64,000 bases of DNA from contig JAQPZY010001628.1 in the NCBI GenBank assembly GCA_029931535.1, positions 798,001-862,000 of the forward strand, read 5' to 3'. The translations under genes were made by a program, and so were the position numbers. How positions within the stretch are numbered: the stretch's first letter is position 1; the number at the start of each line of letters is the position of its first letter. The notes below the pieces were generated by a model. That model worked only from the letters and a program-made list of their open reading frames with translations. It searched no databases and was not told the origin of the DNA. Shown one piece after another: positions 662 through 28,812 of the stretch. This DNA comes from Margaritifera margaritifera (lineage: Eukaryota; Mollusca; Bivalvia; Unionida; Margaritiferidae).

Positions 662-766
662 ATAACAAAAGAAGAGTTTCTTAATTACTACAGTGGTGTT
701 AGTGCCTCCATTGACAGTGACGCATATTTTGATTTAATGATGAGGAATGCATACCAGATTAAGTGA
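662..766 (+). CDS. Calcyphosin-like EF-hand protein, terminal exon (copy 1)
   Basis: This phase-0 exon of 34 codons plus TGA follows a CAG acceptor. It reads [20 protein letters not shown] and then [13 protein letters not shown]. The F-N-Y-Y-S-G-V-S-A block followed by a D-x-D/E-x-Y/F-F-x-x-M-M stretch is the C-terminal signature of calcyphosin and calcyphosin-like proteins: the end of EF-hand 4 (the E/F-helix side) and the tail. Those proteins are cytosolic calcium binders. The family usually ends in A-W-x-L, while this copy ends A-Y-Q-I-K, a diverged tail. A second version of the exon lies at 28711-28812 on the same strand. Upstream exons are outside the window. The family assignment is firm; which paralogue it is, and whether it is expressed, cannot be seen. 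Confidence 0.85.
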
Positions 767-2990
767 CCCACTAACAAGCAACAAACTACAAATAGGACTA
801 CAGTCAAAAGAACACCCTGCTTCATACCACTTGCATCTTTATTTTCCCTATGAATTGGATCTTGTTCAGAGGGTCAGACAAGGCTTTTACATTAGCTATT
901 ATATGAACAATTCATTACGCACTACATTTTTAATCAACAAAAAGTTGTACCTCTCATTTATCAATTTTATTGCTACATGTTGATGAAAAGAATTTTACTT
1001 TTATTAGCTTGAAACCATTTTAAGTTCCATCATGTTCAGCCTGTGTTTTTTTTATTATGTTGATGTAGAGTTCCAACTGCTTTTTAAGGACAGCACAAAT
1101 TATTTTTGTTCAAATCATCTGTATAAGTTATAGCTTCATTTCACACTGTTTTATGCTAGTTGTTTATATGTCTTTATGTTCATTAGAGGAAACACCATGT
1201 TCATTGTCATGCAGTTTTTGTTGACCCCACATTAGTGGAAAGGTGAAACATATTGGTCACTTCATCAGCAGCATCATCAAGGTCAACATTTTAGTTAAGG
1301 TTTTGGTTAAAGTTTTTCTTTTAGGCATGGGATGTACATGCAGACCATAGTCTTCCTAAATTGAAGACGAAACTAAAAATCAAGATCTCAAGTTGGAGGA
1401 GGAAAATTATACTTTACGCTGATCTGGAACAGAAAATGTTATTCCCCTGTCATCAGGAAATTTTCTTCTAATGCACATAAGCATGAGATCATGGGAAATG
1501 TAAATGTATTAGATCAATATGTCAAGTCAATGAATCACAACTGTAAGGTTTGTGCAGAGTATCTTTAAAAATGTTATTTCTAGAACCAGAAGAAAATATA
1601 GTCCATGATCTAGAGGATATAATTTGAGAAATGTGTTAAAAACAAAAACAAAAAGAATTATAAGTAGGTAGCCAGTGACATTTTCTCAGTAAGTGTTAGA
1701 AAAGAATTGGTGATGAAGCTCTGATGGAAGATCTCTGGATACACTTCAGGTGTAAATCATTTGAAATTCAGACAAGAAAATATAGCTTGTTTGGTTGGTA
1801 TAGACTGTTTCAGATGATTCACTTAGCAGTTTTGAAATTTTCAAGATGTGTGTATTGTGAATGTCAATTTATTACTCCCTTTGTAATGTCAAATTCTCAT
1901 CAAAAAGTTCATTGATTTCTGATCAGAATAAACTATATACATGAATGGAAGAATAAAACTGGGACCTTGGATTTTGTATTTTATATATCATAAGACTTCT
2001 AAAAAAAATCTTTTTTTAATGTAAATAAGGAATTATATACTTATTTTTATTGTATATCAGTAATAATTGTTATGTCTATCATACTGGCATCATTAAATAT
2101 TTACTCACTCCACTGGTTTGTATGTTGTCTTCATATGAAAAGCACTTGCATGGTTGATACTTTAGTTACCCATGTATATATGCACCTAATTGTGAACAGC
2201 ATAGACCCTGATTTGTCTTTGCATAATGCATTGGGAGATCATGGTCAATTTGGTTCACTTGACATTATAAGTAAAACAAGACGCATCAATCCTGATCTGT
2301 TCTAGCAGCAAGTGGCAACACAGATCTCAAATGGGCAAGTACAATGCAAGAGCAAAGGCAGCAATTTGTTCAGTAGTTGATTCTCCTTGATTGATTCACA
2401 CTCGAATTGCATTCTTCATGCTTACTCCATTTTGGTGTGAAAATGTTGATGTTTTCAATGTTTGAATGCCTATTTGCACCTTTTAGCATTGGCATGAGTA
2501 GCACATTTTGAGTGTGGTTTGTGTTGATATGAACTCTTAAAATTTCTCCTCTGACTAGATAATAGATTGACATTTTGAATTCTACCTTAATTTCCTGTGT
2601 CTTTATTGTGCTGAAAGTAAAGACAAATGGAACCCTGAATTCTCCTATTCTTTAGGTAATTACATCTTTGTTATAACAAAAGGTCAAATCTTTGATTTAT
2701 TAGCCCTACAAACACTACCAATTCGTACAGTAGGTTTTTGATTTGGGGTCAGTTTACTGCATACCAGTTTTGTAGACTTGTCATACCATTTTTAAAGATG
2801 ATTTGAATTGTTTTTACTGAGTTGATGTTTGCAACATGTCTGCATTGTCTCAGTAAACAGTAGATCATACTTGTACTGCCATGTAACATTTGTTAAGTTT
2901 ATTAAGCCCCTTGCATCATTACAAGACTAAATCCATGAATGCTTGGGACAAACCTTTCAGACCTTTGTGATCTAATCTGACTGGTGATAC
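767..2990. other. 3' flank, no recognised feature
   Basis: Likely 3' UTR and intergenic DNA. It is AT-rich and low in complexity in places. The short frames within it have no recognisable protein features on either strand. Confidence 0.5.
1926..1931 (+). other. Candidate polyadenylation signal AATAAA
   Basis: AATAAA occurs here and again at about 1951, roughly 1.2 kb after the stop codon of copy 1. The hexamer is common in AT-rich DNA, so this is only a candidate 3' end. Confidence 0.25.
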
Positions 2991-2994
2991 CCCC

Positions 2995-3135
2995 ACCCAT
3001 GTACCCAGTGGAAGAGGACTTAGCAGGGGTGGATCCAGGAATATCAGTGGGGGGTGGGACATAAACAAGTAGGCGGCAAGGGGTCTTGTGGGGGCCATGG
3101 AGGCAAAGCCCCCGGAAGTAATTTTTAGGGATGGA
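2995..3135 (+). repeat. Dispersed G-rich repeat, copy 1
   Basis: The segment GGATCCAGGAATAT, then a G-rich stretch, then GGCAAAGCCCCCGGAAGT recurs at about 26770-26912 as CAGATCCAGGAATATAA, a long G run, and GGCGAAGCCCCCTGAAGT. Both copies are on the plus strand and about 140 bp long. A short interspersed element family is the simplest reading; I do not know its class. Confidence 0.6.
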
Positions 3136-3137
3136 TG

Positions 3138-3155
3138 CACACACACACACACACA
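3138..3155. repeat. (CA)n microsatellite
   Basis: Nine uninterrupted CA dinucleotides, directly after the dispersed G-rich repeat. Confidence 0.9.
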
Positions 3156-26538: not shown

Positions 26539-26674
26539 TATTCAATAATTTGTAGTATTCAATAATTTGTAGTATTCAATAATTTGTAGTATTCAATAAT
26601 TTGTAATATTCAATAATTTGTAGTATTCAATAATTTGTAGTATTCAATAATTTGTAGTATTCAATAATTTGTAG
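26539..26674 (+). repeat. 17-bp minisatellite, eight units
   Basis: Eight head-to-tail copies of TATTCAATAATTTGTAG, with one base change in unit four only. It sits in the loop of the large inverted repeat. Confidence 0.97.
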
Positions 26675-26769
26675 TATTACAGGTGCTTCAGTGGACACTC
26701 TAGACACCTCGAATATTAGACCAAAAAAGAGAAAGGATTCGTGCTGCATATATTTCTCTTTCATGGAAC

Positions 26770-26912
26770 AAATTTTCCAGAGTCAGATCCAGGAATATAA
26801 TTTACAAAGGGGGAGGAGATGGGGGGGGGGGGGGGGCTAGACAAATAGGCAAGTGGTCTGTGGGATGGAACCCCTGGTGGGGGCCCAAAAGGCGAAGCCC
26901 CCTGAAGTTCCT
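26770..26912 (+). repeat. Dispersed G-rich repeat, copy 2
   Basis: Second copy of the element at 2995-3135. It contains a run of 16 G at 26821-26836 and GGCGAAGCCCCCTGAAGT at the right end. Confidence 0.6.
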
Positions 26913-28710
26913 GCATTTTAAGAGTTTCCAGTGCACAATTTTAACCATCTAACTGTAAAGAAGTATTATTCTAGGAAAAGTTCCGGTTGTTTCGCGCTTA
27001 TTTGTAGTGTGTTTTCGTGTGTGTGTGTGTGTGTGTGGGGGGGGAGGTTGTTTAATAAAATTGTTAATTGGAAGAAAAAAGTGTTTAAACTTTCTAACTC
27101 GGGCTATACTTTTTATAGAGATTAAATTGTATGTGTTGTGAATTCCGAGAGTAGTCATTTCTATTTCCAGGATAACTTCACTTACAAGGGGTTGTGTTAT
27201 ACAGAAGCATATGAAAAAGAGGAAGGAAAGACCCTCTTCTTCCCAAATATATATCGTAGTTCAACTCAGTGCGCTCTTTAATTGGTGCCTGGTCGAAATC
27301 CGGTCAAGAGTTAAGTTGAAGGGGGTTACCCTGTCCGAAAAATCGCTAAAACATTGAAGTGGTGAGACATTATTACAGTATTGAAAATAAATACTGGAGG
27401 AGAGATTACCAAGAAAAAAAAATTATCACATGTGCTAGACTGATTTAATTCGATATACATGTACAAAAATATACTTGACTTTCTGGCTGCTTCATTACGG
27501 GCAAAACAGATAAAATACACGCATTTAGGACTTTCGCGGAAAATGAAACATCGTACAAAGTTGATCTCACATATTCCATCAGAAGAAGGATGGTAACAAC
27601 AAGGCAAAAGCGTAGAAAAAGGAATCAAAACCAACCAATTTATGTAATGTCCGACAATACTGTCATAGGCTTCATTTAAAGACTATTTTCGAAAGAAAAA
27701 TATCTAAATCCTTGAAAACTTTGCCAAGAACTATATGAATCAAAGAATTCTCTTCAAACAGCTTTCATTTTATATGTAATTCTTTTTTTTTTCAAAAGAA
27801 AAAATAATAGTTGTGCACAACAACAACAGCAAAATCACGCATATACATATAGAAATTAGACTAGCTGTCTAACTCGCACATTCTGTAAATGTACTATTTA
27901 TAGTACAGCATCACTGCAAAAAGTATATTATACATGTAGATTGGAACCTAGCTTGTGGGTGTGGGGCTTGCGTTTTAACTTATTCTTGAGCCACCATCTT
28001 CTTAATCCTCTAACTCCAGATACACTTTTTTTAACAAATGCACCCATTGAATAACTACAACTTCTGGAAAGCATAACAGTATAGCTCATTTGAATGATTA
28101 CCTTACTTCAAAATGACAAGTAAACGACAAGGTAACGATTGATATTTCATACATACAGCATCGTTGGATCTGCGTTGTAACAAAATCGTTCTACAATGCA
28201 TTGTAATGCAATCACGGCCATAAAACAAAAAATCGTGTTATGTATACATAAAAAACTACTTTGAATCGTGTGCTCTTTAATAGCAAGTATTAAAATTGTC
28301 TCGAAGTAATTTCCGAACATCAAAAATCTATGTTGGAACGGCAAACGTAACTTTATGGATGTCAAACATTGATCCTTAAGGAATTGATTATTACAGAAAG
28401 TAAGGGTCAAAAGTTGAATCATTTAGACATTCCGTGTAGCTATTATCAGTAGCAGAATTATTGTATTTATATGAATAAAACAGAAATCGATCACAAACCC
28501 TCTCCGTGGATCCTGCTTTCTCCATTTTTATCGTTGCCAGTACGTATAAATATCATTGCTGGTGCGTTGGCATTGTTGCCGGTGCGTTATGATTGACTGG
28601 TGTGGTAAAATTCGCAGATATATTAGCCATGCAAAAATAGTGAGACATTTGCCCTAAAGAAAGTAAATAAAAAGACAAACAAGCTTGTAAACTGTTTTCT
28701 TTTCTTGCAG

Positions 28711-28812
28711 ATCACAAAGCAAGAATTTTTAAATTACTACAGCGGAGTCAGCGCAGGTATAGATAGCGAAGTCTATTTTGACCTAATGATGAGAAGCGCC
28801 TGGAGATTATGA
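28711..28812 (+). CDS. Calcyphosin-like EF-hand protein, terminal exon (copy 2)
   Basis: A strong polypyrimidine tract and TTGCAG acceptor (to 28710) precede a phase-0 exon of 33 codons plus TGA. It reads [20 protein letters not shown] and ends [12 protein letters not shown]. The A-W-x-L ending is the canonical calcyphosin C terminus, so this is the more typical of the two copies. It encodes the end of EF-hand 4. Aligned to the exon at 662-766, 25 of the first 30 residues are identical while 16 of those 25 codons differ silently, the mark of long purifying selection on both. I found no EF-hand exon between the two by eye, which favours alternative last exons of one gene, but a tandem duplicate with unnoticed exons is possible. 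Confidence 0.88.

Follow-up and report, generated by a model that had tools for sequence, protein, structure and literature searches.

A calcyphosin-like gene of the freshwater mussel Margaritifera margaritifera with three candidate alternative last exons

Tropomyosin genes (TPM1, fly Tm1 and worm lev-11) carry three tandem duplicated 3' exons, and ACTN1 and ACTN4 carry tandem duplicated EF-hand exons, as described in those sections of PMC9741552 that were available to us; in bivalves, AOX isoforms of Crassostrea virginica arise from duplicated exons (PMC5589949, in the part available to us). Here we describe a gene of the calcyphosin/CAPSL family in the mussel Margaritifera margaritifera, which lies in and beside a 64-kb stretch of contig JAQPZY010001628.1 (contig positions 798001-862000; hereafter the window) of the 2.45-Gb assembly GCA_029931535.1, and whose surroundings (200 kb to the left and 30 kb to the right of the window) were searched as well. 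The arrangement is of a known type, that of tandem duplicated last exons, and its occurrence in this gene is apparently unreported: the literature searched yielded no account of alternative last exons in CAPSL, the main text of PMC9741552 contains neither 'CAPSL' nor 'calcyphos', and an eLife paper about CAPSL (PMC11392532) nowhere mentions isoform, splice, exon or cilia in its main text.

The locus very probably holds one CAPSL-like gene in which splicing can join exon 3 to one of three tandem homologous last exons (4a, 4b and 4c), and this gene would probably make three proteins that differ in their tails only; we infer the use of all three last exons from the genomic sequence. The original prediction, made on the window, had placed two such plus-strand exons at 662-766 and 28711-28812, in phase 0 and behind good acceptors, and both were confirmed, each with an AG ahead of it and a TGA stop at its end. 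The single upstream exon set that we found supports the proposal made there, that both belong to one gene as alternative last exons; the number has to be amended, as there are three versions and not two, 4a lying outside the window. The parts of the gene are:

Exon 1: contig 764103-764239, plus strand, 137 coding bases from the ATG
Exon 2: contig 776800-776977, plus strand, 178 coding bases
Exon 3: contig 784847-785056, plus strand, 210 coding bases
Last exon 4a: contig 797299-797400 (701-600 bases left of the window), plus strand, AG acceptor, phase 0
Presumed 3' untranslated region of 4a (part): window 101-593, plus strand, AATAAA at 101 and 588, ahead of the 4b acceptor
Acceptor of 4b: window 640-661, plus strand, ends in tttcag
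Last exon 4b: window 662-766 (contig 798662-798766), plus strand, 34 residues, stop TGA at 764-766, phase 0
Presumed 3' untranslated region of 4b: window 767-1957, plus strand, AATAAA at 1927 and 1952
Acceptor of 4c: window 28691-28710, plus strand, ends in cttgcag, strong pyrimidine tract
Last exon 4c: window 28711-28812 (contig 826711-826812), plus strand, 33 residues, stop TGA at 28810-28812, phase 0
Presumed 3' untranslated region of 4c: window 28813-28986, plus strand, first AATAAA at 28981, 168 bases past the stop

The upstream set (exons 1-3) shares its contig and strand with the three last exons and is found 13-34 kb to the left of the window; 4a and 4b are 1.26 kb apart, and 4c lies 27.9 kb past 4b. 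Exons 1, 2 and 3 end at the donors GTAAGT, GTGAGT and GTATAT, and exons 2, 3, 4a, 4b and 4c all follow AG acceptors; by a crude, home-made score with ranks that start at 0, the acceptor of 4b is number 145 and that of 4c number 15 of 3,587 AG sites. The coding parts of exons 1-3 add up to 525 bases, 4a, 4b and 4c each continue in phase 0, and the frames joined in silico stay open for 208, 209 and 208 amino acids, respectively. Strand, phase and boundary are the same for all three last exons, and one upstream exon set serves them all, as in tandem duplicated homologous last exons.

The predicted products (208-209 amino acids) are homologous over their full length to members of the calcyphosin/CAPSL family, which span about 190-210 amino acids, and the 4b tail matches PDB entries 11yj (calcyphosin-like protein, E 1e-9) and 3e3r (calcyphosin, E 4.8e-5). 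Three protein searches listed 226 sequences (the best 120 of 1016 matches, the best 120 of 397, and 12 of 12), 225 of which could be split at the boundary between exon 3 and the tail. The closest relative met is a protein of another freshwater mussel, Sinanodonta woodiana (P0168), with 89-95% identity over exons 1-3 and a tail that equals that of 4a in 32 of 33 residues, while the 4b tail equals that of Mya arenaria isoform X2 in 31 of 33. For 4c, the closest of the 225 retrieved tails agrees in 28 of 33 residues and comes from a fish.

The same boundary is used in other animals. We compared the 100 residues ahead of it in all sequences with at least that many, and counted as tail-swap pairs those that differed there by no more than one residue and also differed in the tail. 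Among the listed matches there are at least 20 such pairs, at least six across species and at least 14 within 11 species, the latter with no difference at all ahead of the boundary; these within-species pairs are proteome annotations, not experiments. The species are the clam Mya arenaria, the only invertebrate, and ten vertebrates, namely Carcharodon carcharias, Amia ocellicauda, Scleropages formosus, Anguilla anguilla, Sander lucioperca, Triplophysa rosa, Betta splendens, Gouania willdenowi, Astyanax mexicanus and Pseudophryne corroboree. Thirteen of the 14 within-species pairs differ by 5-11 tail residues, and one, formed by two Mya tails with W at tail residue 31, by a single residue. Paired CAPSL tails at this boundary thus occur in ten jawed vertebrates from shark to frog (e.g., P0028/P0075 and P0020/P0034), and no published account of them was found in the literature searched. 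A gene model of the fluke Echinostoma caproni contains two successive tails, as though gene prediction had continued past one last exon and into the following one.

Comparison of the coding sequences points clearly to protein-level selection on each of the last exons, best seen in 4a and 4b and weakest, though also present, in 4c, the most divergent. In the first 30 codons of 4b and 4c, 25 residues are identical, 16 of these 25 codons differ silently and five residues are replaced, a count that the original prediction had given and that our recount reproduced exactly; of the 26 base differences, 4 are at first, 3 at second and 19 at third codon positions. Over the same number of codons, 4a and 4b show 14 silent changes and three replacements, and 4a and 4c show 12 and seven. 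Five or fewer replacements between 4b and 4c arose in none of 20,000 neutral simulations under each of three transition/transversion settings (simulated means 16-17), in line with the long-term selection that had been claimed. By the NG86 method, the nonsynonymous distance (dN) between 4b and 4c over 30 codons is 0.10, with a saturated and therefore undefined synonymous distance (dS), and over 33 codons all three pairs have a dN of 0.16-0.21 and an undefined dS. The DNA likeness of 4b and 4c is confined to the exon and the last few intron bases (656-744 vs 28705-28793), ungapped identity outside the exon being 38% over 60 bases upstream and 28% over 100 bases downstream; outside the exons, all three have in common only a few bases ahead of the acceptor, and a 100% match between the flanks of 4a and 4b is due to the overlap of these two flanks. 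Near-invariant tail columns are retained in 14 of 14 cases in 4a, 14 of 14 in 4b and 12 of 14 in 4c.

Several points weigh against a three-way choice. The exon 3 donor GTATAT looks less than strong, and the poly(A) motifs are weak evidence because AATAAA is common by chance (about one per kb at this A+T content, by our own estimate). The Sinanodonta protein, for all its closeness, displays a 4a-type tail only, and an exact 4b or 4c tail is absent among the listed proteins (the best 120 of 397 matches and the 12 of 12). Finally, two near-invariant positions of 4c hold G16 and E20, residues that none and two, respectively, of 191 distinct family tails have there, and 4c may be drifting; at least as many rare residues are carried by 20 of the 191, and those of 4c are unusual but not extreme. 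Along these lines, 4a and 4b could be working alternatives and 4c a stranded or decaying copy, seldom or never spliced in, as its position 27.9 kb beyond 4b and past reverse-transcriptase relics, its two broken near-invariant residues and the remoteness of its nearest retrieved tail would suggest. Its frame and stop are, however, intact, its acceptor is strong and its replacements are far below the neutral expectation, and 19 of its 26 differences from 4b fall on third positions, so that any unconstrained phase of 4c was presumably short. We consider a decaying 4c unlikely, and prefer a gene with three working last exons.

The original prediction had named tandem genes as the alternative, in which the exon at 28711 would end a second complete calcyphosin gene. 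With the upstream parts of 20 relatives, neither tblastn nor profile searches found a credible upstream calcyphosin exon on either strand of the 64-kb window (best matches: tblastn E 0.022, 26% identity, at 53742; profile E 4.9), while a positive control with 35-residue mock exons, taken from six held-out relatives, recovered 26 of 26 at E<0.01. The earlier statement that no other EF-hand exon lies between the two thus stands, and the full exon set at 767-28710 that tandem genes would need did not turn up in this search, whose control worked. A six-frame scan of the 64 kb for EF-hand motifs returned no strict ones and only loose ones lacking the remaining loop, Rfam gave no match in the window at the gathering threshold, and the 30 kb to the right held no credible calcyphosin match (best E 0.17). 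The suggested search of the flanks for a second set of EF-hand exons returned one set left of the window and no second, which makes a single upstream set within 264 kb.

Assembly-wide, a search with the Mya protein (76 candidates scored) gave nine matches at E≤0.001, comprising the six exons of the locus and three on contig C1017, and with the 4c tail as query there were four matches, namely 4c, 4a, 4b and, again, C1017. The matches on C1017 (minus strand, 44-58% identity) represent a distant calcyphosin-like paralog, whose presence is the one point in favour of tandem genes. Its tail is, however, continuous with the preceding 35 residues (from residue 141 onward), so that no intron interrupts the paralog at this boundary and a separate last exon is not needed. 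Barring this paralog with its other exon layout, the single upstream set at the locus and throughout the assembly rules tandem calcyphosin genes out; they are excluded as far as the assembly reaches, and the probability that we leave them is minimal. The paralog itself has two versions of a large exon (residues ~12-149) at 1076183-1076563 and 1065069-1065416 on the minus strand, 11 kb apart, and a single matched tail exon at 1060220-1060420; the doubled exon could mean alternative exons, but also tandem genes or a protein with two domains.

We also considered that 4c might serve as terminal exon to an unrelated transcript that has captured a calcyphosin tail, given that it lies far downstream and that other genes could begin within the 28 kb. 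However, 4c has the phase and boundary of 4a and 4b, and ten open reading frames searched against Pfam (out of 143 with at least 70 amino acids, a thin test) contained no host-gene domain, reverse transcriptase being found in three; we regard such a capture as highly improbable, and one gene with three last exons remains our reading. Minus-strand fragments of a reverse transcriptase domain (Pfam RVT_1) are located at window positions 14491-15080, in the intron between 4b and 4c, and 55156-55602, right of 4c, consistent with a 28-kb gap that has grown through retroelements. The window further contains an inverted repeat of about 700 bases (27889-28603 vs 25924-25218, 68% identical) that ends about 100 bases ahead of 4c, a 372-base unit duplicated almost perfectly in tandem at 18040-18786 (98% matches), and a 59-base unit present five times at 46895-47187 (99%).

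In the mechanism that we envisage, the donor of exon 3 would join one of the three acceptors, each leading to a stop of its own and presumably to a separate poly(A) site, with the choice made by terminal-exon recognition together with 3'-end processing and cleavage. Following the order of transcription, the transcript would be spliced to 4a; else 4a would be skipped in favour of 4b; else transcription would run 28 kb on to 4c. The swapped segment comprises the second half of the fourth EF-hand loop, the exit helix and the C-terminal helix. By the numbering that we assume for this loop, the segment begins at position 8, the shared part lacks the canonical first residue, and Glu12 is retained in 4a, 4b and 4c. 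A predicted model of the Mya protein has helices at 177-190 and 194-205, with a mean predicted local distance difference test score of 81.3 overall and 56-65 over the last three blocks. The tail swap would most likely tune partner binding or the calcium response rather than add a new fold.

As to what the tails are for, we would prefer, with low certainty, variants for different cilia or sperm, because relatives sit in ciliary doublet microtubules: solved structures of doublet microtubules contain family members (RIB22 and RIB57 of Tetrahymena), and there are fold matches as well. This reading also leans on three reports, each in the part available to us: 1) a study of ciliogenesis in Urechis, in which Capsl is a hub gene without an earlier link to cilia (PMC10380512), 2) a mussel gill proteome that includes a calcyphosin-like spot (PMC5302490), and 3) a mosquito sperm proteome that includes calcyphosin (PMC9934393). 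In the accessible part of a further paper on cilia (PMC10973386), only CAPS2, a different protein, is named.

Only tentatively do we suggest that the swappable CAPSL tail is ancient, predating the split of bivalves and gastropods and perhaps bilaterian, with a third tail added in freshwater mussels; on balance we doubt it. At tail residues 1 and 31, 4a goes with Mya X3 (V1, W31) and 4b with Mya X2 (I1, Y31), so that two informative sites favour this pairing and none each of the others; in the snail Physella, the Y tail agrees with Mya X2 in 31 of 33 residues, vs 28 of 33 between Mya X2 and Mya X3; and the two tails in ten vertebrates and a fluke hint at an ancient origin. Trees were built on the 33-residue tails, which are too short to decide the origin. 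In a consensus tree of 53 tails, 4b groups with Lottia and an unnamed protein (87), beside Mya X2 (77), and 4c falls among one set of vertebrate tails, B (68), neither the A nor the B set of vertebrates being monophyletic; the placement of 4c does not fit a simple W type shared by molluscs. By the approximately unbiased (AU) test, a constrained tree uniting 4b and 4c (p 0.354) leaves separate origins unrejected, which speaks against an ancient tail, and one uniting 4b with Mya X2 and 4c with Mya X3 has p 0.348; mollusc-wide Y and W groups, with 4c among the latter, give the worst of four trees (28.6 log units, p 0.087). With 29 tails including 4a, p is 0.204 for a unionid-only origin and 0.355 for an origin of 4a and 4b shared with Mya. 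For separate origins in unionids and in Mya it is 0.075, this tree being excluded by bootstrap proportion (bp-RELL) and expected likelihood weight (c-ELW) and kept by the Kishino-Hasegawa, Shimodaira-Hasegawa and AU tests. AU rejects none of the tested origins. Independent duplications in molluscs and vertebrates are quite possible, as described for tropomyosin (PMC9741552, sections available).

What began as a curiosity of two exons becomes a resolved gene with a putative three-way choice of C-terminus, at a boundary also used by vertebrates and a clam. It offers a small, testable system for why calcyphosin needs swappable tails, and for whether alternative last exons persist or re-arise across animal phyla; if the tail were indeed ancient, one ciliary calcium-binding gene would have kept at least two tails for hundreds of millions of years.

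Among known systems, the closest are the CAPSL proteins of jawed vertebrates (mostly isoforms X1/X2) and Mya X2/X3, in which, as in the mussel gene, an identical body has a tail of ~33 residues swapped at the identical boundary; they show two tails per species in annotated proteins, compared with three exons in the mussel, and the third Mya protein differs from X3 by one tail residue. Oyster AOX likewise has alternative homologous exons in a bivalve gene, although a different one (PMC5589949, part available). ACTN1 and ACTN4 resemble the mussel gene in that homologous exons exchange an EF-hand; according to the sections of PMC9741552 at hand, a single version binds calcium there, whereas the mussel gene has what we take to be Glu12 in all three. 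In tropomyosin, as here, three homologous last exons swap the C-terminus of one protein, but the protein is unrelated, and its human, fly and worm exons apparently have no common ancestor (PMC9741552, same sections).

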